Shown here piece by piece: positions 565 through 17,409 of a DNA stretch of 38,986 nucleotides (position 1 is the stretch's first letter; every line of letters begins with the position of its first letter). Source of the DNA: an uncultured Mycoplasmatota bacterium (GTDB lineage Bacteria > Bacillota_I > Bacilli_A > RF39 > UBA660); assembly GCA_946498975.1 (NCBI GenBank), contig CAMMQC010000012.1, positions 1 to 38,986 on the forward strand. The letters run 5' to 3'. The notes below the pieces were generated by a model. It saw nothing but the letters and a program-made list of their open reading frames with translations, was not told the origin of the DNA and ran no database searches. Made by a program: the position numbers and the translations under genes.

Positions 565-1305
565 TTATTGTTTGATCATTGGCTCTTGTATTTGTTCTAA
601 ACCTGTTTTAGTCGTTTCTTTAACACCTACAATAGTTGAATTTTTAAAAATATCTTCTATTTCATCTTTTACATTAGTTACATCTTCATTAATCATAAAC
701 TCAAATTCATAAGTTTTATTTTTTTCTAATGTTATATCCCATAAGTTATTTATGATAACTGTTTTTGTTTCACCTTGGAATTCATTTAATTCTACCTTAA
801 AAGAATTTCCATAAGAAACTTGATTCCCATCATCATATTGTTGTTCAGTATATTTTGATATATCTTTTACCGTATAAGTCCTTATAAAAGTATAATTGTT
901 ATTCTTACAAAAGTTTTGTTTAAACTTCATATTATCGTTTCCAATATAAATATCTTTATTACCATCTAATGTATTACATTTGATTAAAGTTATATCTCCT
1001 TTATAAATTTGAGTACCACCATCCATTAAAGTGTCTTCTAATTTTAATGTGTTTATTATTTCGTTTATAGCATTGCTATTATCTTCAATATAACTTTTTA
1101 ATTCAGCTTTTCTATCTTTCATTTCAATAGTTATATTTTCAATGCAATAAGTATAAATGTTTCTACCATCGTTTGATAAGAGCAATTTAGGTTTATTACA
1201 TTCATTTTGATTTTCATATTCGATATTAAAATTATTTTTTGAACTACAACCTGTTATTCCTAAAACTATAGCTATTATTAAAAATCCAACTATTGCCTTT
1301 TTCAT
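565..1305 (-). CDS. lipoprotein, unknown function
   Basis: A 246-residue lipoprotein and the first gene of the three-gene minus-strand operon. The signal peptide is MKKAIVGFLIIAIVLGITGC, with the lipobox ending at Cys20. The signal sequence closely resembles that of the 26-301 protein (both end GITGC), so the two may be distant paralogues. The mature domain is rich in Asn, Lys and Glu, alternates beta strands and short helices, and has several Cys residues (CIEN, LIKCNT, KQNFCKNN). No catalytic motif is recognised. The ribosome binding site is GGAGG, about 5 bases before ATG. A hairpin at 1372-1391 just upstream looks like the terminator of the preceding minus-strand gene remnant. Confidence 0.7.
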   Translation of the reverse strand: MKKAIVGFLIIAIVLGITGCSSKNNFNIEYENQNECNKPKLLLSNDGRNIYTYCIENITIEMKDRKAELKSYIEDNSNAINEIINTLKLEDTLMDGGTQIYKGDITLIKCNTLDGNKDIYIGNDNMKFKQNFCKNNNYTFIRTYTVKDISKYTEQQYDDGNQVSYGNSFKVELNEFQGETKTVIINNLWDITLEKNKTYEFEFMINEDVTNVKDEIEDIFKNSTIVGVKETTKTGLEQIQEPMIKQ

Positions 1306-1414: not shown

Positions 1415-1519
1415 TTATTTATCTAATCTTACTAACCTTTTATATGACATCTTCCCATCAGTAAGTCCAATTAAATAATCACTACTAGTATTAAAATATA
1501 TTGCTAACTTAATTAAATA
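1415..1519 (-). pseudogene. 3' remnant of an XRE-family regulator gene
   Basis: Reading on the minus strand from just after the left attachment repeat, the frame gives 'LIKLAIYFNTSSDYLIGLTDGK' and then stops at 1415. This is the second half of a Cro/C1 HTH domain: the '(I)LKLAxYFNVSxDYLLGLTD' signature is very common in Firmicute phage-type repressors. The recognition helix and N-terminus are missing. An open frame continues upstream to 1609, but it runs through the attachment-site hairpin, so its first 40 or so residues are not a real protein. The gene was apparently truncated where the mobile element or an earlier one joined the chromosome. Its missing 5' half is not beyond the right end of the element. 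Confidence 0.55.
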
Positions 1520-1556
1520 TAAACAAAAAGCGGAGCCATAAGGCTCCTTCAGGGGG
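1520..1556. repeat. left end direct repeat (candidate attL core)
   Basis: The sequence TAAACAAAAAGCGGAGCC, a 4-base loop (ataa), then GGCTCCTTCAGGGGG. The same block occurs at 17371-17409 in the same orientation, with two extra A's and a different loop (tttc). On the minus strand it reads as a rho-independent terminator: C-rich lead, GGAGCC/GGCTCC stem, GC, then T-run. The two copies bracket a relaxase, a replication-type ATPase and an integrase, and arm-type repeats lie just inside. I therefore read them as attL and attR. Confidence 0.7.
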
Positions 1557-1657
1557 CAATTTAGTAAAAAAAGAGGATTATTAAAAATCCCCGTAATATC
1601 GACATACAATTCATTTTAAGTTTAACAAAATTTAACTAAAAAATGAGAAATTTAGCA

Positions 1658-1683
1658 CAATTTGATGGGTAGCTGATGGGTAG
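1658..1683 (+). promoter_or_regulatory. integrase arm-type repeats, left end
   Basis: CAATTTGATGGGTAG at 1658-1672 is followed one base later by TGATGGGTAG (1674-1683). The right end has the same pair at 17311-17337 with a 2-base spacer. Paired short direct repeats inside each att core are the usual arm-binding sites of the integrase N-terminal domain. The assignment is by position and repetition only. Confidence 0.6.
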
Positions 1684-1782
1684 AAATACTTATCAGATAT
1701 TCCTTTTTTTATTATTTAATGACAATATGACATTATATATAGATATGGTACCAATATTTCAAATTACAGTGTTATATAGTGG

Positions 1783-1800
1783 TATAATACTATTAGGTGA
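1783..1800 (+). promoter_or_regulatory. promoter -10 and RBS of the 1806 gene
   Basis: An extended -10 (TGGTATAAT, with TATAAT at 1783-1788) lies very close to the AGGTGA ribosome binding site at 1795-1800 and the ATG at 1806. The mRNA leader would be about ten bases. The -35 is poor, as expected for an extended -10 promoter. Confidence 0.5.
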
Positions 1801-1805
1801 TTTAA

Positions 1806-2753
1806 ATGAGTTTTGTATATGCCAGAAAATTAAAAAATAAATTCTATATATTAGCTGATTCAAAAACAACTATTTCGGACGATGACTCTGATCGACTTAA
1901 AATTAGAATTGGAGAAAAAGTATATAATGATTTAAAAAAATTTGGAGTAATAAAAAATGTAATAATCAACGAAAATATTTGTATTGCATCTGCTGGTGTT
2001 TTAGAAGACTTCAATGAATTATTAAAATATGTAGATACTCAAAAAATTAATGATATTAATTTAATATCACATCAAGCTTTAAACATTCATTTACATAATA
2101 ATAAAAGGACTGATTTTATAATAGCAAAAATTGATACAAATAAAGAATTATTAGAAATTAAAAACGGAATTATATCAAAAGTAGAAACTTCATGGCTAGG
2201 TTCATACAATTGTTTTAATATATTTCAAAACATAAGACATGATAAATTATTTAGAAATCAAATTGAAGATTCATATAGTGTACTTATAGAAGAAGATAAA
2301 AATAGAATTAATTATAATGAATTTCCACCTATAACAATAGATGATATTGAAAAAGATATAGACTTTAAAGCATTCGATAAAGCAGTAAAATCAAATACAG
2401 ATTTAACAGTTGGAGGATATATAGTAGAATGCATTGAACATCACAATAAATTTATGTATCCAGAATGCATTAATAGCACTGTAGAGAAACCACAAATTGT
2501 ACCAAGTGACGGAGAAATTAATACTTATAACGAAGCTTCCGAAGGAGGATATACATATCATGCATATGAATCAAACAATAATTTTAAATTATATATTTAT
2601 CAAATGAAAAAAGGAATTATATATGAACCAAACATTAATGATCCTAAATATAATCATTTAAGACTGCCTAAAATATATAACATGAAATTAGATGATTTCA
2701 TAAAAAATAATAATATAAAACAATCAATAACTATTAATATAGAATATGAATAA
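1806..2753 (+). CDS. candidate proteasome-fold (Ntn hydrolase-like) protein
   Basis: A 315-residue protein. Residues 1-64 resemble the start of a proteasome beta subunit or HslV. Met1 is followed by Ser2, which becomes the N-terminal residue after Met removal. Then come strand 'FVYARK', strand 'KFYILADSKTT' with Asp18 (Asp17 after Met removal, the position of the proteasome catalytic Asp), a Lys-containing segment 'FGVIKNV', and strand 'NICIASAG', which matches the '..ia.aG' strand of these enzymes. Residues 100-130 ('TDFIIAKI', then 'LLEIKNGIISK' and 'WLGS') continue the family's beta pattern. Known: Ntn hydrolases use a processed N-terminal Thr, Ser or Cys. Inferred: this is a Ser-type Ntn hydrolase or a relative with unknown substrate. 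It is a single-gene cargo unit between the left end and a degenerate second copy of that end (2761-2897). Confidence 0.6.
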   Translation: MSFVYARKLKNKFYILADSKTTISDDDSDRLKIRIGEKVYNDLKKFGVIKNVIINENICIASAGVLEDFNELLKYVDTQKINDINLISHQALNIHLHNNKRTDFIIAKIDTNKELLEIKNGIISKVETSWLGSYNCFNIFQNIRHDKLFRNQIEDSYSVLIEEDKNRINYNEFPPITIDDIEKDIDFKAFDKAVKSNTDLTVGGYIVECIEHHNKFMYPECINSTVEKPQIVPSDGEINTYNEASEGGYTYHAYESNNNFKLYIYQMKKGIIYEPNINDPKYNHLRLPKIYNMKLDDFIKNNNIKQSITINIEYE

Positions 2754-2760
2754 ATGCAAT

Positions 2761-2897
2761 AAAAAAAGAGAATCAACGGATTCCCTATAGAATCGGCATA
2801 TAACTCACATTGAGTTTATTAAATTTAAAATGTAATTATTAACACAATTTTATGAGCAATTGATGTTTATAAATACTCGTCAGCTGCTCATTTTTTT
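2761..2897. repeat. degenerate second copy of the element's left subterminal region
   Basis: This stretch aligns along its whole length with 1566-1710. Shared features in order are AAAAAAAGAG, a C-run, an 'ATCG(A/G)CATA' block, 'AGTTTA..AAATTTAA', 'CACAATTT.ATG', 'TGATG', 'ATACT..TCAG' and a final T-run. The GATGGGTAG arm repeats have decayed (ATGAGCAAT, TGATGTTTA). The core terminator-like repeat is absent. The copy directly follows the stop codon of the 1806-2753 gene. Confidence 0.6.
2853..2897 (+). terminator. probable terminator of the 1806-2753 gene
   Basis: A TGAGCA/TGCTCA stem (2853-2858 with 2885-2890) contains a further TTGA/TCAG pairing and is followed by seven T's (2891-2897). 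It lies inside the decayed left-end copy. Confidence 0.45.
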
Positions 2898-2915
2898 AAA
2901 TAATATTATACAATC

Positions 2916-3431
2916 TTATAATTGATTATATTCTTTCAATTTTCTAGAATTATCAATATTATTTGATTTAAGTATTCTATTATTAAAAGCTTCTTCTATT
3001 ATCTGAGATAATTGATATGAATTTGTTGGATAATTATATAATTTTGCATAACCTGATTTTACATTATCTAACAACCTATCAGGAATAGGAGTATTAAATT
3101 GATTACATCCTGGCAAAAAAATTCCTGCTAGTCCACTTCTTTTATTATTTTGATCATTTCTTAATGTAGAAGCTATCTCCCAATCTACATATTTTCTTTT
3201 ATAAGTTTCTTTTCCAATCATAACAATAGTAACCGTAGAATCAGTTAAATAGTTTTCCCTTATAACACGCATAGTATATTCTGGATTGTTACTATTAATT
3301 TCGGTTCCATATTCATTACCAACAATTCTTTTAATAAATGTATTCTCGTAAGAATTAGAATACTTTGTTACAAAATTACACACCTCATAATCATCTTTAT
3401 GATGATATGATATAAAAACTTTATGTTGCAT
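2916..3431 (-). CDS. TIR-like (ThsB/DUF1863-type) protein
   Basis: A 171-residue protein, most of it one TIR-like domain. The first strand 'KVFISYHHKDD' (residues 4-14) is the classic TIR start. 'TVTIVMIGKETYKRKYVDWEI' (66-86) matches strand D and the helix of the DUF1863/MTH538 TIR-like family, with Glu85 in 'DWEI' as the candidate catalytic glutamate. 'GLAGIFLPG' follows. Known: ThsB of Thoeris and related TIR-like proteins make NAD-derived signals or deplete NAD after phage infection. It is the last gene of the operon and starts one base after the stop of the 3433-4038 membrane protein, so the two are probably translationally coupled. No ThsA-like SLOG or SIR2 effector is present in the window, so this is not a canonical Thoeris pair. 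Inferred role: infection-triggered effector or signal generator. Confidence 0.75.
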   Translation of the reverse strand: MQHKVFISYHHKDDYEVCNFVTKYSNSYENTFIKRIVGNEYGTEINSNNPEYTMRVIRENYLTDSTVTIVMIGKETYKRKYVDWEIASTLRNDQNNKRSGLAGIFLPGCNQFNTPIPDRLLDNVKSGYAKLYNYPTNSYQLSQIIEEAFNNRILKSNNIDNSRKLKEYNQL

Positions 3432-3432
3432 A

Positions 3433-4038
3433 TTATTTACTCCTTATCTCATCTAATTTCATTGTTAAATCAACAATCTTTACGTTAACTTTTTTAATGT
3501 CATCAATGATTTCATTATATTTTGGATATCTTTTTTGTATTTCTTGTGGATCTTCATCAGTATTTTTTTCAAGTTCTTTTTCGTACCATTTTCTGAATCT
3601 TGCTTGATATTTGGTTAAATGATTTCTTAAATCCGTATTTAATACCTCTATTAATAGATTGACCAATTTATTCACTTCTTTATCATTGTTTCCAGCTAAT
3701 TCTTTAATAATAGTTCTAAATTGATTATATATTGAATACCAAGAATCATAAACCTCAGCAATTACATCATTTTCCGGATCAAAAGGAAGTGCTAATTTTC
3801 GAGTAATTAATTCTGTCCATGCTTTATGTGCAATTTGCTTTACTTCCTTATTGCATCCAATATCTATTGTTACACCTTTTATACATATTTGTGAAACACT
3901 TATACTTTTAACCTTTTTTATTTTTTTTATTATCTTTACAATACATAAAATACATAAAATAATTATCGGCAATAGGACTACTATATTATCTAAACCTATT
4001 GTTATTTTATATTTTGATAAAAATTTTAATATATCCAT
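3433..4038 (-). CDS. membrane-anchored partner of the TIR-like protein
   Basis: A 201-residue protein with one transmembrane helix at about residues 18-38 ('NIVVLLPIIILCILCIVKII'). A basic linker and a helical cytoplasmic domain follow. The soluble part has well-defined blocks: 'AHKAWTELITRKLALPFDPENDVIAEVYDSWY' and 'LRNHLTKYQARFRKWYEKE'. These look like a conserved family, though I cannot give a Pfam name. Spacing to the TIR gene is one base and to the DUF262 gene 24 bases, so it belongs to the same operon. Pairing of a TIR-like protein with a membrane partner fits a membrane-localised abortive defence module. That role is inference. Confidence 0.6.
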   Translation of the reverse strand: MDILKFLSKYKITIGLDNIVVLLPIIILCILCIVKIIKKIKKVKSISVSQICIKGVTIDIGCNKEVKQIAHKAWTELITRKLALPFDPENDVIAEVYDSWYSIYNQFRTIIKELAGNNDKEVNKLVNLLIEVLNTDLRNHLTKYQARFRKWYEKELEKNTDEDPQEIQKRYPKYNEIIDDIKKVNVKIVDLTMKLDEIRSK

Positions 4039-4062: not shown

Positions 4063-5859
4063 CTATAAAGAATAATAGTATTCTTTAATCTTATTAGCCA
4101 TCAATATTCTACGTTGTTTTAAGAATTCATCAAAATCATTAACTGTCATATTTTCAAATCCATCTGGTATGCAATTGATTTTCAAATTCTGATTTAACAA
4201 TTCTTTATCAATAATTGATCCAATAGTAGCTTCACCATTTTTACATTGTTCATTTATCTCTAACATATAAGCATTTGGTGCTTTATTTGTTATTTGTAAA
4301 TTTATTTCTGTTTGTATTAATGCAAAATTAGCAATTTGATTATAAATACTCTTATTATTCTTACCGTTCTTCTGTAGATAGTCTTTAGGGAATATGTGAT
4401 GTACATCTCCTCTGCCTTCTACTAAAGTTCTTACTTTCATATCTTTAGATAAGAATGCATTATCATTTAAAGATATTTGGGCGATTAGATATGTTTTCCA
4501 ATAAGGAGAACTTGCTACAGGAGTATTAAAGTTTTCGATTAAAATACTATTCCAGAAAGCATCACCTAAACGTCTTTCTAATTCTTCATTAATATATTGA
4601 ACTAAATCTTCTGCTTCATTTAATCTTCTAATATCTAAATCAAATTGTGATTCTGGAGATGAAGTGTATCTTTGTGTAATTATAGACATAATTACCCATC
4701 TCTTAACAAGTCTTTCAATAATATTTGAAGCTATATTCCTTTCTCTTAACAGTAAAAATAAAATATATCCAAAATTTAGTACGTTTTTAGATCTTACTAA
4801 TGAATCATCTATTATTCCAGCTGATTTTAAAATCATTACATATCTTTCAAAATTAGTTTGACTAACAAAAGATTTTACTCCATCATATAATTTGTAATAA
4901 CTATCTTCTACTATATCTTCTCTATATTCTCTTGTTTCAAAATCACGACCAGATAATAATGAAACTAAATCCTGTAATTTACCTCTTTTAAACTTATAAG
5001 TAAAAGCAACTCTTAATACATCTACATAACTTGGTAAATATAAATCTTCATTCTTATCTTTTATCCAAGTGATTTTATTGAAAATGTCCTTTGAACTAAA
5101 AGCTAAATCATTATTTTTTATATTATCAAAATCAACAGGTGTTTTAGCAAAATGACAAAAATAATCAATAGTCTTTCTAATATCGTTTCCTTCATATTTT
5201 TCATTGACACTTATCTTACTCATCGCAAAATCTGCTTGAGATAAGACCACACCGGCAGAATTTATTCTAACGAATATTTCTGTAACAGTTTCAATATCAA
5301 GCATAGAACCAAGTTCAATTCTACCTATTGATATATTTTTTATAGATTGTAATTTATTAATTCTTTCGTTAACAATATTAGGATCAATTTCAAACTTATT
5401 TGCATAATTATTTATATATTCAAATAAATTTATATTTCCATTTTTCATAAATTCAGAAATATCAGGAATCCAATCTTCTTGTTTTTCTATTGCTGGATTG
5501 CAAGTCTGAAATTCTTCAGTTCTTATATTAAAAGCAATTTTAATTTTTTTCTTTTTATAATCACTATCTAAAACTTCTTTTCCAAGTAAAGCAGCAGTCA
5601 ATGCTGTAATTCTTTGTTGTCCATCTATTAATATTTGCTTACCTTCAGATGCAGTTCCATCTTTTAACTTTACATCAGGACTTTTCCAAGTAATTATATA
5701 TCCTACTGGAAATTCCTTATAAAGAGAATCTATCAAATCTCTAACTTTAGTAGTATCCCACACAAAAGGTCTTTGTATTTCAGGAATTGCAATTGTTCCA
5801 TCACTAACATATCCTAACAATGTACTGACACTAACATTATTTACTTCAAACTTAGCCAT
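4063..5859 (-). CDS. GmrSD-like DUF262/HNH nuclease
   Basis: A 598-residue protein. The N-terminal DUF262 (ParB/Srx-like NTPase) domain is marked by 'IPEIQRPFVW' (25-34) and 'ILIDGQQRITAL' with DGQQR at 79-83. The middle is helical. The C-terminus carries a DUF1524-type His-Me/HNH nuclease motif, 'DVHHIFPKDYL' (485-495), followed by 'NQIANFALIQTEIN'. GmrSD-family enzymes are type IV restriction systems that cleave modified (for example glucosylated hydroxymethylcytosine) phage DNA, and BrxU is a related fused form. Both halves are present in one chain of usual length. The gene sits 8 bases after res and 24 before the membrane partner, all one operon. A host that methylates its own DNA and also carries a modification-dependent nuclease would attack both unmodified and heavily modified phage. 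Start: ATG after TAGGAG. Confidence 0.85.
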   Translation of the reverse strand: MAKFEVNNVSVSTLLGYVSDGTIAIPEIQRPFVWDTTKVRDLIDSLYKEFPVGYIITWKSPDVKLKDGTASEGKQILIDGQQRITALTAALLGKEVLDSDYKKKKIKIAFNIRTEEFQTCNPAIEKQEDWIPDISEFMKNGNINLFEYINNYANKFEIDPNIVNERINKLQSIKNISIGRIELGSMLDIETVTEIFVRINSAGVVLSQADFAMSKISVNEKYEGNDIRKTIDYFCHFAKTPVDFDNIKNNDLAFSSKDIFNKITWIKDKNEDLYLPSYVDVLRVAFTYKFKRGKLQDLVSLLSGRDFETREYREDIVEDSYYKLYDGVKSFVSQTNFERYVMILKSAGIIDDSLVRSKNVLNFGYILFLLLRERNIASNIIERLVKRWVIMSIITQRYTSSPESQFDLDIRRLNEAEDLVQYINEELERRLGDAFWNSILIENFNTPVASSPYWKTYLIAQISLNDNAFLSKDMKVRTLVEGRGDVHHIFPKDYLQKNGKNNKSIYNQIANFALIQTEINLQITNKAPNAYMLEINEQCKNGEATIGSIIDKELLNQNLKINCIPDGFENMTVNDFDEFLKQRRILMANKIKEYYYSL

Positions 5860-5867
5860 AATTTCTC

Positions 5868-8804
5868 CTATAATTGTGAAAGATTTTTTATAATATCTAA
5901 CATTTGCGAGTTTCTTAATTGAACTTTATATTGAACATTATAATTATCTTCCTTAAGCTTATTAAAAAATTCCTCTGCACAGTTTATTTCAAATTGTTGA
6001 TCAGAAGGTATCTTTTCGAATGTGTCATAATCCTTTGTTTCAATAACTAAATTTACTTCTTTTATATCATTATCTCTCTTAACAACATACATAAAATCAG
6101 GACTATATGTACCTCCACCAATTAAAGGAATTCTTATACTTCTAGCAGGTATTTTTCCAAACACTATAATTTCATCATTATCAGTAGTAATATTCTTCTT
6201 TTCAAGCTCTGAATCATATAAACATATATCATACAAATAATCATCGCTTGGTTTTTTATTAGAATATGAAATCCCCAAATTTCCTTCAACTTCGACCTTT
6301 GGATTGCCATCTATATCGGTCAAAGAAGTTTCTTCACCTGTTAAACTTGTAGATATATATTTAAATTTTCCAAAAAGCATTTTATATTTCCATTCATTTA
6401 TTTTACTAATTAGTATAGCTAATGTATTAGTATTAAAAAACTCATCTTTAACAGTTACTTTTTTATTGTATTCAACTAAAGCCTCATGAATTATATTAAT
6501 AGGAATATTGGTACTTTTATATACTTTATCTAAAAAGAAATTATAAGCAATAAAATCTTTTTTCACTTCATATTCTCTGCCAGATTCCTCGCTTAATGTA
6601 ATAACCCCGTTATCATTTATTAATGTATTCTCATGAGATGTTAGAACAGAAGTACCTTGAACTCCACTATTTAATATTTGTAATACTCCAAGCATAATCT
6701 CTTCTGGATTAATATCTTGATAAGATATAAAATATTTTCTATTTAATAATTCCCATAACTCTTTTATTTCACTAAACTTATTTACTCTAATTTTTGCTTT
6801 AGGCAATTCTACTTTATTATTTTCGTCAATAATTTTTCTGGCTTTTAATCCAACCATTAATTCAGGATATTCATTAAATAATTGTTCACGATTTTCAAGC
6901 AAAATATTTTTATCCATATCAATATAATCTTTAGTAAGCAATTCAATAAAAAATTCTTTAGCAGTCCTTCCTAATTTACTAGCCATTGACTCAATAATAT
7001 TGTCAGATAATTTATTATTCTCAGTATAATCTCCATTTATTTCATTTACTAATCTGGTAGCAAAATCTTTTTCGGTAAAATCAACAATATAATTTAAATA
7101 AAATTGCTCATTAGAAATTCTTGACAAAGAGTCATTAACTGGCAATCTCAACCCCCTACCAACTTCTTGTAGTTTACTTATTTCTGAACCACTACTTCTT
7201 AATTTACAAATAGTAAAAATATTAGGGTTATCCCAACCTTCCTTCAATGTCCACTTTGAAAAAATAAATCTAAATGTATTAAATTTTCCATTATTTTTAT
7301 AAATAGATAATGTTCCATCTTTATCAACCAATATTTGTCTAACCTCTTCAGCAACGGCATCGTCAGAATTGCTATTATCCTTAGCGAAATATCCACCATG
7401 ACAATCGGAAATATTTTCTAGTGTGGAGTTCAAATACTCTTTATATAACAATTCATTGGAATCATTATCATCTATATGTTCCAATTCTTTTTTTATTTTT
7501 GTTATTAATAACTCCTCAAAAATATCTTTCAAATATGTTGGAACTGGGTTTTGTTTGTTCTCTCGATATGAATCTATATCATCAATAAAAAACAATGCCA
7601 AAGTTTTAATTTTATCTTTTCTTTTAAAATTTTCCTTTTCAGTTTTAAAATGAGAGTCTAAAGCACTTTGTATCATCACTTTTTGATATGATGTAGAATA
7701 AATATCAGTAAATATCTCACTACCAACAGTTAATTCTTGCCCATTAGATAAAAATAATGTTTTTCCAATTCCTTCAATTGTAACATTTTCAAATGAATCA
7801 TCTATACTTTTTAAGGAATCATCCTTTTCTAATTCGTAAGTTCTTTTTGAACTTTCAGTTATTAATTCCAATCTAGCTTTTTTCTTGTTTTCAATAGCTA
7901 ATAATTTTACTTTTTTATTATTTCCGTCCGGAGAACTTATATATTTTACACTAACACCCTTTACTAAATTATCATTAAAAGCTTCGCAACTACCGAGATT
8001 ATAAATTAAGTTATGATAATCCTTAACTAAACTTTTACCATTCTTAATTTCGGGAAAAGTAGCTCCAAATCTAATAATACATTGTGGCTTAATTTTTTCT
8101 GTTACAAATTTAAATGTTTTATTATCTTTAGAAATTCTGTGTGGCTCATCAATTATTAAAAATGGTTTTGTAGCACTAATTGCTTCTACTGGTACATCAA
8201 AGTCTTCAACAACACTTGAATAAGACTTTGTAAGCATAGAACCATTTCCATCCTTAAACAAATGCATATTTGTAATTAAAACTGTTATTCTATCTTTTAA
8301 TAGTTCTGAATGTTCTACAAATTCTCTAACAGCACTAGGAAAAGTATCTTTAGATTTTTTATTCTTTTTGGCATTTAAAACACATAAATCAATGGTTTTT
8401 CCATATTGATCTCTAAAATGATTTATTGTTTCATCAGATTGAATGAATTTCACTGTACCTAACTTTATAGGGAGTGACGGAACTAATATAATAAATTTAT
8501 GAATTCCATAATTTTTATTCAACTCATATATCATTTTAGTATATACATAAGTTTTACCAGTACCAGTTTCCATCTTAATATCAAGATTTAAATAATTATC
8601 AATCCCCAAATTTCCTCTTAAAGAAAAAGGTAATTCTTTATTCAAGTCTTTAATATTTTGCAATAATATATTAGAACTCAAATCAACCAAAGGATTAGCA
8701 TACTTATATGTATTATTGGTAAAAATACCATTTTCAAAAACTTTATTAATTCTATTTATTGCATCATTTTGATGTCTTAAACCCTTTTCAAGTTTTAATC
8801 CCAT
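5868..8804 (-). CDS. res: type III restriction enzyme, Res subunit
   Basis: A 978-residue SF2 helicase-nuclease. Motif I is 'METGTGKT' (78-85), motif II is 'IIDEPHR' (DEPH 219-222), and motif VI is in 'LQEVGRGLRLPVN'. Type III Res proteins characteristically carry DEPH rather than DEAD. The C-terminal PD-(D/E)xK nuclease is visible as 'SPDF' (Asp903), then 'LVIETKDYD' (Glu922, Lys924). Length is normal for the family (about 900-1000). Known role: with Mod it translocates or slides on DNA and cuts when two unmethylated sites are found head to head. It lies 14 bases downstream of mod and 8 upstream of the DUF262 gene. All catalytic residues appear intact, so it is probably active. Start ATG follows AAGGAG. 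Confidence 0.93.
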   Translation of the reverse strand: MGLKLEKGLRHQNDAINRINKVFENGIFTNNTYKYANPLVDLSSNILLQNIKDLNKELPFSLRGNLGIDNYLNLDIKMETGTGKTYVYTKMIYELNKNYGIHKFIILVPSLPIKLGTVKFIQSDETINHFRDQYGKTIDLCVLNAKKNKKSKDTFPSAVREFVEHSELLKDRITVLITNMHLFKDGNGSMLTKSYSSVVEDFDVPVEAISATKPFLIIDEPHRISKDNKTFKFVTEKIKPQCIIRFGATFPEIKNGKSLVKDYHNLIYNLGSCEAFNDNLVKGVSVKYISSPDGNNKKVKLLAIENKKKARLELITESSKRTYELEKDDSLKSIDDSFENVTIEGIGKTLFLSNGQELTVGSEIFTDIYSTSYQKVMIQSALDSHFKTEKENFKRKDKIKTLALFFIDDIDSYRENKQNPVPTYLKDIFEELLITKIKKELEHIDDNDSNELLYKEYLNSTLENISDCHGGYFAKDNSNSDDAVAEEVRQILVDKDGTLSIYKNNGKFNTFRFIFSKWTLKEGWDNPNIFTICKLRSSGSEISKLQEVGRGLRLPVNDSLSRISNEQFYLNYIVDFTEKDFATRLVNEINGDYTENNKLSDNIIESMASKLGRTAKEFFIELLTKDYIDMDKNILLENREQLFNEYPELMVGLKARKIIDENNKVELPKAKIRVNKFSEIKELWELLNRKYFISYQDINPEEIMLGVLQILNSGVQGTSVLTSHENTLINDNGVITLSEESGREYEVKKDFIAYNFFLDKVYKSTNIPINIIHEALVEYNKKVTVKDEFFNTNTLAILISKINEWKYKMLFGKFKYISTSLTGEETSLTDIDGNPKVEVEGNLGISYSNKKPSDDYLYDICLYDSELEKKNITTDNDEIIVFGKIPARSIRIPLIGGGTYSPDFMYVVKRDNDIKEVNLVIETKDYDTFEKIPSDQQFEINCAEEFFNKLKEDNYNVQYKVQLRNSQMLDIIKNLSQL

Positions 8805-8818
8805 ACTGATTCTCCTTT

Positions 8819-10750
8819 CTAATATCTTGTAATTATATCAACATTTATATTTTTAATATTTTTAACTTGTTTTAAATTATCTTTTAAAGTTTGAATTTCA
8901 CTTAAAGTAAATGAATATCCAAATAACACAATTCTATTACAATTAAATTCAACTTCTTTTTCATATTTCTCTATTAAATTCTTAATTGCAGTAGATTGCA
9001 TATCTGAATTAATTAAATATATAGTATTTTCACATTTATAAGCTTCGTAGTTATCTAAATATAATATTTCATATTCATCTGTTAATCCATAACCATCATT
9101 TATCATCCAAGTTGTTAATATTGAATTAATACCAAATTCATCAACAATAGTTTTATCAGGCATAACATAATTAGGTTCAAATTTTTCTAGTTTATTTAAA
9201 GTTTTATCATTCAAATCTTTGATAATATAATGTTTAAACCCGTAATCTATATCTGCATTTGTTTCTTCTTTTATTTTTTTACTAGCTCTCTTGATTCTTT
9301 CTTGACCAATTTCGTCTATTGTTTTATAGCCATTTTTGAATGCTTCAGAATTAGGTTGAACTTCTTCATTTAATTGAACTAGAATATATTTATTATCTTT
9401 TTTATCTTCTGCATTAATCTGCATTACGGCATCAGCAGTAGATCCAGACCCACTAAAAAAATCCAAAATAATAGAATTATCAAAACACTTTGTTTGCATA
9501 TTAACTATATATTTTATAAGTGATGTTGGTTTTGCATAACTAAATATCTCATTAGGTGGAAGTTCAAAAAGTCTTTGAAGTTCACTTGTTGCATCCTCAT
9601 TTGTTCCTACACCATTATCAGAATTAATTAAAGTAGAGGGTGCTTTTATTTTTTTGTCTTGATCATATCTCAAAACATTAAATCCAAATTTATTTGATAA
9701 ATAAACTTTAGTACCATTTTGAAGTTCTTCATCTAAAAATGATTGTTGCCATGTAAAATGCGATTCAACATTTAATTCATCAAGAACCATACCATTTGCA
9801 ACTTCAAAATCATTTAAAATATTTAACCCTGTACCCTTTGAACCATAAAAACCTCTCTCATATTTAGAATCAGGTAAGGTTGTTAATATTGTTTTCTCTG
9901 GAAAAGTTAATTTTTTCAATGTGTTTGTTCTTTTAACTATAGGCTGAAGTTTGTCAGCATATGCTTTTTCTCCATACAAACTTAAGCTATCTGAAATTTT
10001 AGAATAACATAATATGTACTCTGACATTTTTCTTACCTTATTAGATAAAAACGAACCTTTTTTCTTTCTTGTCCAAACAAAACATGCAACAAAATTCTCT
10101 TCACCAAAAATATTATCGCACATTAGTTTTAAATTCGATTGTTCATTATCATCAATACTAATAAATATAACACCGTCTGATGACATTAATTGTTTTGCCA
10201 AATATAATCTTGGATACATAAAAGTCATCCATGCCGAATGTGAATTGGATTTTGAATTAGTCAATTCATATATTCTTTTAGCCTCTTCGTCAGAAACATC
10301 TAAATCACTTATTAATTTATCAACTGAAAAATTAAATTTATCATTATAAACAAATCCATCACTACCTGTATTATAAGGTGGGTCAATATATATACATCTT
10401 ATCTTATTAGAATATGATTTTACTAAATGCTTTAAAGCATCAATATTATCACCTGAAATATATATATTTTCGCTATTCAAATTTTCTTCCTTTTTATTAT
10501 GTTCTTCATCTGGAATCAAAATTGTTTCCGTATCCAATGAAGCCAATAATTTTGAATAGTTTTTTCCCAAAAAATTTAAAGCATATCCCTCTTTAATTAT
10601 ATTAACATCTTTGCTTATTTCATTTTTGAAAGTTTCTATATCAAAATCACCATTTGAATCAAAACATTCTGGATAAATATCCTTTAACTTATCTAATTTA
10701 TCTATAGATACATCTAATTTTTCATTTTTACTAATTATATCCTTTATCAT
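8819..10750 (-). CDS. mod: type III DNA adenine methyltransferase, Mod subunit
   Basis: A 643-residue N6-adenine methyltransferase of the beta class, in which the catalytic motif precedes the SAM-binding motif. 'CIYIDPPYNTGSDGFVYND' holds DPPY at 123-126, and 'ILDFFSGSGSTADAV' holds the FxGxG motif at 431-437. Residues 220-400 form the variable target-recognition region that sets the recognition sequence, which cannot be predicted here. The C-terminal part (about 500-643) is the Mod-type tail that contacts Res. The gene is 11 bases downstream of the HTH regulator stop and starts 7 bases after AGGAGG. It methylates one strand of an asymmetric site and is needed for both modification and restriction. 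Confidence 0.93.
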   Translation of the reverse strand: MIKDIISKNEKLDVSIDKLDKLKDIYPECFDSNGDFDIETFKNEISKDVNIIKEGYALNFLGKNYSKLLASLDTETILIPDEEHNKKEENLNSENIYISGDNIDALKHLVKSYSNKIRCIYIDPPYNTGSDGFVYNDKFNFSVDKLISDLDVSDEEAKRIYELTNSKSNSHSAWMTFMYPRLYLAKQLMSSDGVIFISIDDNEQSNLKLMCDNIFGEENFVACFVWTRKKKGSFLSNKVRKMSEYILCYSKISDSLSLYGEKAYADKLQPIVKRTNTLKKLTFPEKTILTTLPDSKYERGFYGSKGTGLNILNDFEVANGMVLDELNVESHFTWQQSFLDEELQNGTKVYLSNKFGFNVLRYDQDKKIKAPSTLINSDNGVGTNEDATSELQRLFELPPNEIFSYAKPTSLIKYIVNMQTKCFDNSIILDFFSGSGSTADAVMQINAEDKKDNKYILVQLNEEVQPNSEAFKNGYKTIDEIGQERIKRASKKIKEETNADIDYGFKHYIIKDLNDKTLNKLEKFEPNYVMPDKTIVDEFGINSILTTWMINDGYGLTDEYEILYLDNYEAYKCENTIYLINSDMQSTAIKNLIEKYEKEVEFNCNRIVLFGYSFTLSEIQTLKDNLKQVKNIKNINVDIITRY

Positions 10751-13436: not shown

Positions 13437-14108
13437 ATGTTTGCTGGTAAACAAGTTTTAACAATAACAAACAAAATAAAATCTTCTGATATTGGTGGTC
13501 TTGGTAAAGAACTTACTGATAGAATTGGTACAGGTAATTACGATACAAATAGAACGAAATTTAATATAGAATATGTTCCTCTTTGTAGCACTAATTTAGC
13601 TAGTTCAACATATAAAACACTTTATAATAACAAGGTAGAATTTAATAAAAATAATAAAAAGATTAACTTATTAAATGGATGTGTAATAACAAGTGGTCAA
13701 GAATTTTTCAAAGCATTAGGAATGAAATTTGAAGAAACAGGTAGAAGTCATTTGACAGGAGAGCATAAAGGTGAACCTATAAATAAAGTTGTTATTAATG
13801 ATAAAAATGATATTCCGAAAAAAGTATTAGATTATTTTGAATATTCTCATCAATTTTTGTGTGATTTAGTTGGAAAAGAAAATGTAGTCTACTCTGCTGT
13901 TCATTTTGACGAAGATACTCCTCATATGCATTTTTATTTTACTCCAGTAGTAAATCAAGTTCATAGAAAAGTATTTGAAACTGATGAAAATGGTCATCAA
14001 TTATTAAAGTCATATGTTGGTAAAGATGGAAAAGAAAAATTAATACCTATTCAAAAGAAAGATGAAAACGGCAAAATATGTATACTATTGAATACGGAAA
14101 TTTCTTAA
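13437..14108 (+). CDS. MobV (Pre/Mob) relaxase, N-terminal part, frameshifted
   Basis: A 223-residue frame holding the relaxase catalytic half. 'VYSAVHFDEDTPHMHFYFTP' contains the MobV metal-binding motif HFDEDTPHMHFYF (156-168). The upstream region carries the expected 'TNKIKSSDIGGLGKELTDR' start and 'INLLNGCVITSGQEFFKALG'. The frame ends early at 14108. From 14078 the natural continuation is in the -1 frame. One extra A in the AAAA run at 14073-14076 would join them into a single protein (..DENGKN-MYTIEYG..) of about 490 residues, the usual MobV size. No good -1 slippery site is present. The gene is either recently broken or carries a sequencing error. Known role: nicks oriT and starts conjugative mobilization using another element's transfer machinery. 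Confidence 0.85.
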   Translation: MFAGKQVLTITNKIKSSDIGGLGKELTDRIGTGNYDTNRTKFNIEYVPLCSTNLASSTYKTLYNNKVEFNKNNKKINLLNGCVITSGQEFFKALGMKFEETGRSHLTGEHKGEPINKVVINDKNDIPKKVLDYFEYSHQFLCDLVGKENVVYSAVHFDEDTPHMHFYFTPVVNQVHRKVFETDENGHQLLKSYVGKDGKEKLIPIQKKDENGKICILLNTEIS

Positions 14109-14884
14109 ATTCCGATCAATTTTGGAAAGACAGAGGATTTAAAACTTCATTTGCTAAAATTCAAGATGATTATAATAAATATATTAATGATAAAGGATTC
14201 AATCTTGATAGAGGTCAAATTGGAGCTAATAAACATCATCAAACAAAAGCAGAAAAATATTTAGATGAACTTAGAGCAGAAACTAAACTAATAAAAATGG
14301 AATATAACAAAAATAAAGATTTAAACAAAGTAGAATTAAAATATAAAGATAAAATATCTGATGTCGATACTAATCCCCTTCTAAATCCTGAAAAAGGCAG
14401 AATAATTGGATATAAAGAAAAAGATATTATCAATTTATCTAATTATTCTAAAGAAGTAACTAAAGATAATTTAAGTAAAGATAAAACAATTGAACAAAAT
14501 GAAATTAATCTCAAGTATAAACAAAAACAAATTGATAAATTAAATAACGAAATAAGAAATCTTAAATCAGGTAAAACTTTACAAGAAAAAGATAAAATTA
14601 TTGAAAATCAAAAATTAATTATTGAAGAAAAAGACGAAACTATAAATTATCAAAATAAAATTATTAATTCACTTAGAAAAGAAATATCAGAATTAAAAGA
14701 AACATTTAATGAAATAATCTCTAATGTTAAAGAAGTTGCCACTGATTTATTTAAAGCTCTAAAAAGAACACTAGGTCTAGATGTTGATAAAGAACAAGAA
14801 TATGACCACTACTCTTTTAAAAGTTTAAGTAAAAAAATTAATAAAAAATATGATAAAGATAAATCTGATGATTTTGAATTATGA
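14078..14884 (+). CDS. MobV relaxase, C-terminal part (out of frame)
   Basis: The frame overlaps the first relaxase frame by 31 bases and has no ribosome binding site before its first ATG. It begins 'YTIEYGNFLNSDQFWKDRGFKTSFAKIQDDYNKYINDKGFNLDRG', which is the MobV segment that ends the relaxase domain ('..lQd.f...v...yGL.RG'). A long Lys/Glu-rich coiled coil follows (about residues 70-225, 'LKYKQKQIDKLNNEIRNLK', 'KTLQEKDKIIENQKLIIEEK'). It is the second half of the gene at 13437-14108, separated by a one-base loss in an A run. It is unlikely to be translated alone in good yield. Confidence 0.75.
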   Translation: MYTIEYGNFLNSDQFWKDRGFKTSFAKIQDDYNKYINDKGFNLDRGQIGANKHHQTKAEKYLDELRAETKLIKMEYNKNKDLNKVELKYKDKISDVDTNPLLNPEKGRIIGYKEKDIINLSNYSKEVTKDNLSKDKTIEQNEINLKYKQKQIDKLNNEIRNLKSGKTLQEKDKIIENQKLIIEEKDETINYQNKIINSLRKEISELKETFNEIISNVKEVATDLFKALKRTLGLDVDKEQEYDHYSFKSLSKKINKKYDKDKSDDFEL

Positions 14885-14955
14885 TATAATATTAAAAGAA
14901 AAGTAAACTGTTATTTTACTTAAATAGCTGAATAATAAGATTGGGAGGTATAAAA

Positions 14956-15987
14956 ATGGCTTTTGTTGATGTGTATAGTAATAATATACGAAGAAAAAAA
15001 GAAGAAATTGCAAGATTAAAAAAAGAAAGATTAAAATATGTGGGTATTGTAGGTGATTCCGGTTCTAAAATATTAAAAGCTAAACAACAAGCTAGTCGCA
15101 CTAAATCACAAGCCACTCTAAAATCTAAACTAAATGAAATAAATCGTGAAGAAAAAAAGAAAAGTGATGCTAAAAAAAAGATTAATGAATATGATAAAAA
15201 GATTACTGCAAAAGAAAAAGAATTAAATAATGAAGAGATAAGATTACAAAAAGAACAAGAGAAGGAAAATAAAGTACAACAAAAACGATATACTGAAAGT
15301 ATAAATTCACTAAATAAAAATATTAAACTTCAACAAATTGCACAATCAGAATTATCTAACGAAATTCAAAAACTAAAAGCTGCAAAAGAAAAAATCAATA
15401 TTTTATTTATAGGAGCAAATCCAACACTAAACTTAAACTTAGAAAAAGAAGCTAGAGAAATAAGAGAATCTATCATCAAATCTTTAAACAGAGATTCAAT
15501 TAACTTTGAAACTAGATGGGCTACTAGAACAACTGATTTGTTTCAATATATAAATGAGATAAATCCAACAATAATTCATTTTAGTGGACATGGAACAGAA
15601 AATGGTGAATTAGTATTTCAAGATAATAATGATAACCCTAAATTTGTGAGTCGTGAGGCAATTACTGAAATGATAAACGCTTCATCTGATGACGTAAGAC
15701 TAGTCGTTTTTAACAACTGCTATTCATCAATTATTGCAGAAGGTGTAGTAAATAATATTGAAGCAGCAATTGGAATGAACATTTCAATTGGAGATGAAGC
15801 CGCCATTCAGTTTGCTTCACAATTATACTCATCAATAGGATTTGGACTTTCATTAGAAAAAGCTTTTAAACAAGCCATTATAAGTTTAAAATTACAAGGA
15901 ATTGATGAAGATACAACTCCTCAATTATATACAAATGAAAACATTAATGCTTCAGATATATATTTAGTAAAAAATACAAATAATTAA
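14956..15987 (+). CDS. CHAT-domain (caspase-like) protease with coiled-coil N-terminus
   Basis: A 343-residue protein. Residues 10-147 are a highly charged coiled coil (Lys/Glu rich). Residues 148-343 are a CHAT domain: 'INILFIGANPTLNLNLEKEAREIRE', then 'PTIIHFSGHG' with the catalytic His212, and 'VRLVVFNNCYS' with the catalytic Cys255. The His-Cys pair and surrounding strands fit the clan CD (caspase/gingipain) fold. Known: bacterial CHAT proteases occur in anti-phage systems where an activated protease kills the infected cell, as with gasdermin- or Cas7-11-linked CHATs. Here it stands alone, with no gasdermin, Csx or NTPase partner beside it. A TTG-started frame reaches 14941, but GGGAGG lies just before ATG 14956. 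It is followed by a terminator and then the integrase, and is probably defence cargo. Confidence 0.8.
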   Translation: MAFVDVYSNNIRRKKEEIARLKKERLKYVGIVGDSGSKILKAKQQASRTKSQATLKSKLNEINREEKKKSDAKKKINEYDKKITAKEKELNNEEIRLQKEQEKENKVQQKRYTESINSLNKNIKLQQIAQSELSNEIQKLKAAKEKINILFIGANPTLNLNLEKEAREIRESIIKSLNRDSINFETRWATRTTDLFQYINEINPTIIHFSGHGTENGELVFQDNNDNPKFVSREAITEMINASSDDVRLVVFNNCYSSIIAEGVVNNIEAAIGMNISIGDEAAIQFASQLYSSIGFGLSLEKAFKQAIISLKLQGIDEDTTPQLYTNENINASDIYLVKNTNN

Positions 15988-16033: not shown

Positions 16034-16099
16034 TTGATAAAATCGATAAATTAATTAGATAAACATAAAAAGCAATTAAATAAATGGTAAAATATAGAT

Positions 16100-16118
16100 G
16101 TATGTCGATATTTTACGG
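16100..16118. repeat. inverted copy of a left-end motif before the integrase
   Basis: GTATGTCGATATTTTACGG at 16100-16118 is the reverse complement, apart from two extra T's, of CCGTAATATCGACATAC at 1591-1607. Their positions, beside attL and just upstream of the integrase start, suggest a shared excisionase or integrase regulatory site. Confidence 0.45.
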
Positions 16119-16142
16119 ATTAATAAAGGAGGTAATAATTTA

Positions 16143-17285
16143 ATGTCCGTAAGACAACTTAAAGAAAATAAACGAACAAGAGATGGAAGATCTTGGGTAT
16201 TTATACAATATAGTAAAGGATTAGATGGTAAAAGGCATCAATATCAATCACAGGCCTATTTTACCAAAGAAGAAGCAACAAAAGCGGAACTAGAATATTC
16301 AGACAAATATAAAGATGTTGAAGTTAATCCCCATATGACTTTTAAAGAAGCATATACACTTTATTATGAATATCAAAAAGATAAAATAAAAGACTCTACT
16401 CTAAAGACATATAGAGATAGAATTAAATATATGGGTTTATTAGATAATATAGAATTAGTAAATTTGAACTGGGAACACTATCAAAAATGGAGATCTCAAA
16501 TGAATAAAACTAATTTATGTGATAAATATAAAACTGATATACAGAAATTTATTAAACAAGTATTAAACTTTGCTGAAAAACAATGGGATTTTAATTTAAG
16601 AAAATTTTATAATAAATTAGAACCTTTTAAAACACCTGGGGCTATAAAAAAAGAAATGGATTTTTATGAACCACAAGAATTTTTTCAGTATATATCAGTA
16701 ATAGATGATTTGCGTGATAAATGCTTATTTGAAACATTATATTACTGTGGACTTAGAAGAAGTGAAGCTAGAGGTCTACAATGGAGACATATTGATTTTA
16801 AGAATCATACTTTAACAATAGCTCAACAAGTTTTAAATTTAGCTGGAAATAATGCAAGTAGTTCATGGTATATAGCAAGTCCTAAAACAGAATCATCTAA
16901 TAGAACTATTCCCGTTCCTGAAGTTTTATCAAAAGACTTAGCTGAATTAAAAAAATCAAATGAACGTTTTTCAAAGTTTAAACAAACTTGGTTTGTATTT
17001 GGAGATGATGTTCCTATAACCTATCATCAAATTTACAGTAGAAATAATAATTATTGTAAAAAAGCTGGACTTAGGCATATTAGAATACACGATTTTAGAC
17101 ATTCTTGTGCTAGTGCTTTAATATCGGCTTCTGCACCTATTACTGCTGTATCTAATTATCTAGGGCACTCAGAAACAACTGAAACATTAGAAACATATAC
17201 TCATTTAGTCAAAAAAGATTATGCTAATGTTCCTAAATTTTTTGATTCATTAGAAAAAGACTTTAACAAAAAGTCTTCTGATTAA
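16143..17285 (+). CDS. int: tyrosine recombinase (integrase)
   Basis: A 380-residue phage-type integrase. Start is ATG 16143 after AAAGGAGG. A longer frame from 16098 overlaps an inverted-repeat site and lacks an RBS. The N-terminus ('GRSWVFIQYSKGLDGKRHQYQSQAYFTKEEA') is an AP2/arm-binding domain, followed by the SAM-like core-binding domain (about 65-165). The catalytic domain shows Arg205 ('CGLRRSEARGL'), Lys248 ('SPKT'), His316 and Arg319 ('RIHDFRHSC'), His342 ('LGHS') and Tyr352 ('ETYTH'), so all catalytic residues are present. It lies next to the right attachment repeat, with arm-type sites 17311-17337 just beyond its stop. It catalyses integration and, with an excisionase, excision of the element. 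Confidence 0.95.
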   Translation: MSVRQLKENKRTRDGRSWVFIQYSKGLDGKRHQYQSQAYFTKEEATKAELEYSDKYKDVEVNPHMTFKEAYTLYYEYQKDKIKDSTLKTYRDRIKYMGLLDNIELVNLNWEHYQKWRSQMNKTNLCDKYKTDIQKFIKQVLNFAEKQWDFNLRKFYNKLEPFKTPGAIKKEMDFYEPQEFFQYISVIDDLRDKCLFETLYYCGLRRSEARGLQWRHIDFKNHTLTIAQQVLNLAGNNASSSWYIASPKTESSNRTIPVPEVLSKDLAELKKSNERFSKFKQTWFVFGDDVPITYHQIYSRNNNYCKKAGLRHIRIHDFRHSCASALISASAPITAVSNYLGHSETTETLETYTHLVKKDYANVPKFFDSLEKDFNKKSSD

Positions 17286-17337: not shown

Positions 17338-17370
17338 CATACTACCAAAATATTAAGAACTCCCTGTAAT

Positions 17371-17409
17371 TAAACAAAAAAAGCGGAGCCTTTCGGCTCC
17401 TTCAGGGGG
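17371..17409. repeat. right end direct repeat (candidate attR core)
   Basis: TAAACAAAAAAAGCGGAGCC, loop tttc, GGCTCCTTCAGGGGG. It repeats the left copy at 1520-1556. The shared 15-base GGCTCCTTCAGGGGG (17395-17409 and 1542-1556) is the most likely crossover segment because the hairpin loops differ. On the minus strand it is the terminator of the small RNA described at 17378-17480. Confidence 0.7.

Follow-up and report, generated by a model that had tools for sequence, protein, structure and literature searches.

The gene for the 315-residue protein P0001 lies close to the left end of the window, the whole 38,986-nucleotide stretch of DNA analysed here, which comes from an uncultured gut bacterium, and raises the question of whether a proteasome-like N-terminal nucleophile (Ntn) hydrolase is carried as a lone gene by a mobile element, and in what capacity. 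The reading favoured here, with an overall probability of roughly 0.6, is that P0001 is a divergent proteasome-like Ntn hydrolase, the cargo of a mobile, defence-collecting element, and most likely a participant in phage or mobile-element conflict. The coordinates of the features discussed are collected in Table 1.

Active-site residues and predicted fold

The P0001 reading frame opens with ATG-AGT, encoding Met-Ser. An earlier note on this DNA had pointed to Ser2, Asp18, 'FGVIKNV' (Lys50) and 'ICIASAG' (Gly64); all are present, and the four residues correspond to Thr1, Asp17, Lys33 and Gly47 of the proteasome. The further claim that both the order and the spacing of β subunit features are reproduced stands in part. 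The order is the same, and the distances from Ser2 to Asp18 (16 residues) and from Lys50 to Gly64 (14 residues) equal those of the proteasome, whereas Asp18 and Lys50 are separated by 32 residues rather than 16, an insertion of approximately 16 residues. The equivalent residues recur in the most distant homologue (L004), where Lys49 and Gly63 maintain the Lys-Gly spacing. Homologues in which Ser2 and Asp18 vary freely, named beforehand as an argument against the assignment, were not seen; together with Lys50 and Gly64, both are invariant in three independent lineages sharing 25-41% identity. All four residues fall within the 42 invariant columns of approximately 307 in the three-lineage alignment (chance P ~3e-4), and the pattern M[STC]x15D is found only in members of the P0001 family among the 106 distinct ORFs of at least 100 aa that make up the background, drawn from the DNA examined. 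Each of the six ORFs with this pattern also contains K-x12-AG. Thus, at the level of sequence, the motif match is beyond chance.

Sequence profiles were largely silent. HMM scans of P0001 against Pfam, NCBIfam, PADLOC and PHROGs returned nothing significant, with phrog_14108 matched at E 0.02 by near-identical copies only, and no match exceeded the gathering cut-off of Pfam PF00227, which covers the 20S proteasome α and β subunits and HslV. Alignment by hhalign to a two-sequence profile of HslV and the Thermoplasma β subunit gave a probability of 0.1, a null result probably owing to the shallowness of both profiles. A profile search of the PDB reached a proteasome α chain at E 0.71 only, but in the right register.

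The fold is instead recognised from structural models. The AlphaFold2 model of P0001, built from five sequences, has a mean pLDDT of 57.7 and a pTM of 0.52; it is best at residues ~51-160 (block means 65-89), and residues 212-315 are unmodelled. Its elements run S1 S2 (short helix 25-30) S S S H1 H2 S S S H3 H4 S, the topology of a proteasome subunit. When searched with Foldseek against 350,542 PDB chains, the model gave a best E of 1.4e-5 at a probability of 1.00, and the best 50 matches listed are all proteasome or HslV chains, bar one Anbu chain (5nyg_A); VIA-align gave a Z of 9.0 and an rmsd of 4.1 over 167 residues. The model of the 41%-identical homologue (L002) has the same topology at a mean pLDDT of 48.5, a best E of 1.9e-6 with all of the best 50 matches listed being proteasome-fold chains, and a VIA Z of 13.8 and rmsd of 3.2 over 163 residues, with 999 of 1,000 chains at a Z of at least 8. 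A viral fold library yielded no match under E 0.02. Both models are of low overall confidence, with alignments of only four to five sequences, and since they were built on the same few sequences they are not fully independent. Nonetheless, structure prediction and fold search, proposed earlier as the means of checking the assignment, returned the α-β-β-α sandwich rather than its absence, and P0001 almost certainly adopts a proteasome-like fold as modelled.

Two alternatives bear on this assignment. That P0001 is not an Ntn hydrolase at all, the motif and models being coincidental, would accord with the low pLDDT and the missing sequence-profile support, but the models of two proteins that are only 41% identical agree, and essentially nothing other than proteasome-fold chains was found among the PDB chains searched; coincidence is accordingly very hard to credit. 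A protein that has retained the fold and lost catalysis, acting as a binding or scaffold subunit in the manner of proteasome α subunits, is also improbable. Several of the top structural matches are α or inactive β chains and, unlike in 20S proteasome β subunits, the equivalent of Ser129 is unconserved (Ser, Val and His across the three lineages in the sequence alignment) and that of Asp166 is Asp, Asp and His. However, Ser129 and Asp166 are auxiliary and lie outside the superfamily triad of residues 1, 17 and 33 used by Fuchs et al. (2021; PMC8665760). Against a loss of catalysis, neither the precise Met-Ser start nor any of the main catalytic residues varies at 25-41% identity, and α subunits possess no N-terminal nucleophile. 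From this conservation and the modelled fold, P0001 is likely a Ser2-dependent hydrolase.

Relatives and known systems

The P0001 family is rare among the genomes sampled and is known from three independent sequences only. Three near-identical copies of the gene, differing by 1, 4 and 6 nt, occur in MAGs named as uncultured Bacilli. One relative, from a water-deer cecum MAG (G271; L002/L013), shares 41% identity with P0001, and another, from Candidatus Bathyoplasma (G591; L004/L014), shares ~25-30% and is extended at its C-terminus by some 150-200 aa. In the latter, the ORF itself opens earlier, at a GTG, but 'MSLIV' has a GGA-containing Shine-Dalgarno-like sequence ahead of its ATG, so that a Met-Ser start probably applies to this protein as well. 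Beyond these copies and two relatives, nothing convincing was found in more than 1,000 genomes sampled across the order, family, class and phylum, and neither tblastn of phages and plasmids nor scans of IMG/VR revealed a relative. Matches in L003, L005-L007 and L016-L019 were dismissed as chance, comprising unrelated ORFs where inspected (galactokinase and UDP-glucose epimerase-like ORFs in L005, a ribosomal protein L11-like ORF in L006) and otherwise lying at noise score.

P0001 adds a new and divergent branch to the proteasome-like proteins that Fuchs, Alva and Lupas surveyed (2021; PMC8665760), the named clusters of which (Firmicute FC1-FC5, PMI, PPH and RPC) were compared by description only. 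Like P0001, those homologues are divergent, single-gene versions of the proteasome fold with Thr1/Ser1, Asp17, Lys33 and Gly47, no propeptide and no AAA+ partner; some are found on phages, and some have insertions near strands 3 and 4 as well as C-terminal extensions. The absence of a propeptide from P0001 fits the observation that propeptides are confined to proteasome β and HslV subunits (Fuchs et al. 2021; PMC8665760).

HslV/ClpQ proteases share the fold and an N-terminal nucleophile with Asp17 and Lys33, and a Ser nucleophile has precedent there in Bacillus subtilis CodWX, an N-terminal-serine HslV/ClpQ type according to the title of the report by Kang et al. Unlike HslV, which is ~175 residues in length, P0001 has the Asp-Lys insertion and no detectable sequence similarity, and its host genome contains neither HslV nor, as in 120 genomes of the phylum, any PF00227 protein. 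The statement that no HslU or other ATPase adjoins the gene holds as well, and the AAA_2 (Clp-type) frames of the host genome sit on contigs other than that of P0001. The proteasome homologues Anbu and BPH, which form rings in bacteria, likewise share the fold, Anbu being among the structural matches listed, but no sequence similarity to them was detected.

A cargo gene among defence genes

Judged from the sequence, P0001 travels as cargo on an integrative mobilizable element of 15.9 kb, since att-like repeats enclose an integrase and a Mob_Pre relaxase and near-identical copies have differing left flanks. An AAA_25 ATPase also lies between the repeats. Homology of the window with L010, L011 and L012 starts abruptly at 1517-1522, the four left flanks are all different, and from the left boundary on L011 and L012 share 99.4% identity over 9,229 bp. 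Of 35 genomes of the genus, 19 contain matches to the element end sequence; L033 and L034 have the repeat in pairs that enclose related integrases (42-45% identity). The pattern is that of a family of mobilizable elements within the genus, with the GGAGCC-N4-GGCTCC repeats as apparent attachment sites. To the left of the element, a lipoprotein gene (565-1305, minus strand) is 94% identical to one at 2185-2916 of L033, inside a related element, so the left flank may in turn belong to a second element.

Table 1. Features of the window and of related elements
Feature	Position	Strand	Remarks
Left att-like repeat	1514..1556	+	43 bp; left end of element; terminator-like GGAGCC-N4-GGCTCC, TTCAGGGGG
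Degenerate direct repeat	1565..1744	+	left of P0001
Extended -10 promoter element	1780..1788	+	TGGTATAAT; read from sequence, just 5' of P0001
Ribosome-binding-like AGGTGA	1796..1801	+	ends 4 nt before P0001 ATG
P0001, proteasome-like Ntn hydrolase	1806..2753	+	315 aa; putative nucleophile Ser2, with Asp18, Lys50, Gly64; core, residues ~2-210; C-terminal ~211-315 without modelled structure
Degenerate direct repeat	2760..2926	+	right of P0001
TIR domain protein	2916..3431	-	ThsB_TIR, PF08937; convergent with P0001
201-aa protein	3433..4038	-	N-terminal hydrophobic (membrane) segment, remainder coiled-coil-like; no Pfam family above cut-off
GmrSD_N/DUF262 protein	4063..5859	-	related to PADLOC HEC-05
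Type III restriction-modification	5868..10750	-	Res 5868-8804; Mod 8819-10750
Mobilization genes	13437..14884	+	Mob_Pre relaxase 13437-14108, then ORF 14078-14884
Tyrosine integrase	16098..17285	+	integrase of element
Right att-like repeat	17367..17409	+	84% identical to left repeat; adjoins integrase
Type IIG restriction enzyme	L011 12067-16095; L012 5850-9878		
Paired repeats in related elements	L033 227 and 10007; L034 185 and 7232		

The description of P0001 as cargo of a defence-rich mobile element, given in the earlier note, is supported by the att repeats, integrase and relaxase and by the TIR, DUF262 and type III restriction-modification (R-M) genes. The R-M part of the element is evidently exchangeable, because L011 and L012 have the first four genes of the window followed by a type IIG system in place of type III; the point of exchange is the end of the DUF262 gene, where identity of the DUF262 protein falls to 92%. 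The gene of the 201-aa protein is likely co-transcribed with the TIR gene, and the two possibly constitute a TIR system whose effector is a membrane protein, without a recognisable ThsA. Beside the integrase, a coiled-coil protein with a C-terminal, caspase-like CHAT domain (14941-15987, plus strand) matches PADLOC SAVED_CHAT and PDC-S66.

Degenerate direct repeats of ~170 bp (local alignment score 109; best of 200 shuffles, 51) flank P0001 on both sides, as if the gene were a separately acquired module. These repeats are reminiscent of the element-end sequence. A functional pairing with the TIR gene, which converges on P0001, was weighed but is not proposed, since the bracketing repeats and the opposite orientation of the genes point to a separate module. 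It is plausible from the sequence that the gene has its own promoter; the short promoter claimed earlier is represented by an extended -10 element, but the promoter scan, the hits of which are uninformative in such AT-rich DNA, found no -35 with the right spacing.

The neighbours of the homologues differ. In L013 the gene order is DUF6119, MazG-like, the homologue (P0003), Schlafen-group-3 helicase and PDC-S06-like ATPase, with the MazG-like, P0003 and helicase genes on one strand (7670-10736) and separated by gaps of 7 and 9 nt, a possible three-gene defence operon. In L014, a bSEFIR gene lies 1.2 kb upstream of the homologue and NB-ARC/TPR genes lie farther out. All three lineages therefore reside in defence neighbourhoods, with no partner constant among them, and such a location does not by itself establish a role in defence.

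Candidate mechanism and role

A Ser at position 2 makes a preferred substrate of methionine aminopeptidase, which would take off Met1 and expose Ser2. The earlier term 'self-processed' is thus unsupported, as P0001 lacks a propeptide and the usual removal of Met is enough. Ser2 would then attack an amide bond with the assistance of Lys50 and Asp18, and Gly64 would contribute to the oxyanion hole, while the 16-residue Asp-Lys insertion and the C-terminal region of ~100 residues may restrict or direct substrates. Given these two features, and the lack of both a propeptide and a dedicated unfoldase, P0001 appears likelier to work as a monomer or small oligomer of limited cleavage than as a bulk-degrading barrel; because the host has no PF00227 protein and its AAA_2 frames lie on other contigs, a barrel served by a dedicated unfoldase is improbable. 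The view that a serine hydrolase of this kind in such a place would be unusual was overstated, considering the N-terminal Ser precedents (B. subtilis CodWX; Thr1/Ser1 in Fuchs et al. 2021) and that proteasome-like genes often have no ATPase partner.

Connectase, an archaeal protein ligase, is likewise stand-alone and of proteasome fold, with extra residues inserted between strands 3 and 4. P0001 could have kept the fold and Ser nucleophile as a specific ligase, transpeptidase or processing enzyme instead of a degrading protease. Its extra Asp18-Lys50 residues fall where connectase, PMI-5 and PMI-6 have their insertions (PMC8665760), a short helix is modelled at residues 25-30, and there is no unfoldase partner. 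Yet the connectase insertion comprises two helices between S3 and S4, whereas that of P0001 is shorter, with the one short helix, and its model is of low confidence (pLDDT below 50 for residues 21-30); connectase also lacks the first helix pair (PMC8665760), present in both models at 66-79 and 84-97. As connectase is moreover archaeal, such an activity of P0001 is distinctly doubtful. Somewhat less remote, though still unlikely, is a role of P0001 on the side of the element or against host defence, with, for example, a repressor or a restriction protein of the host as its substrate, in place of protection against phage. Its position at the extreme end of the element, within degenerate repeats and apart from the defence operon, would suit this role, as would the spread of proteasome-like PPH and AAH genes by phages (PMC8665760), but the L013 homologue is held tightly between MazG-like and Schlafen-helicase genes, not beside integration genes, and no relative turned up in the phage and IMG/VR collections.

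The favoured reading of P0001 is that of accessory cargo of a defence-collecting element, most likely contributing to phage or mobile-element conflict, possibly as a protease effector or processing enzyme. Many proteases, such as caspase-like CHAT and trypsin-like enzymes, are employed in bacterial immunity. From the defence-rich genomic context, a contribution of P0001 to defence in particular is a candidate role with slightly less than even odds. A more specific proposal, put forward tentatively, is that this stand-alone proteasome-like Ser Ntn hydrolase would be the effector or activating protease of an undescribed anti-phage module, which mobilizable elements would swap between defence operons, whether beside TIR or SEFIR genes or within a MazG-Schlafen-helicase string. 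In a search that left preprints and most subscription papers outside its reach, and whose negative outcome therefore weighs little, no paper was found that links proteasome-type Ntn hydrolases with phage defence; JSS1_004 was rejected as a phage Ntn precedent, the paper concerning a kinase. If the proposal is true, P0001 would, as far as was found, be the first proteasome-type protease described in bacterial immunity. The uncharacterised proteasome homologues of the 2021 survey were without a context indicative of function, and the branch to which P0001 belongs has one.
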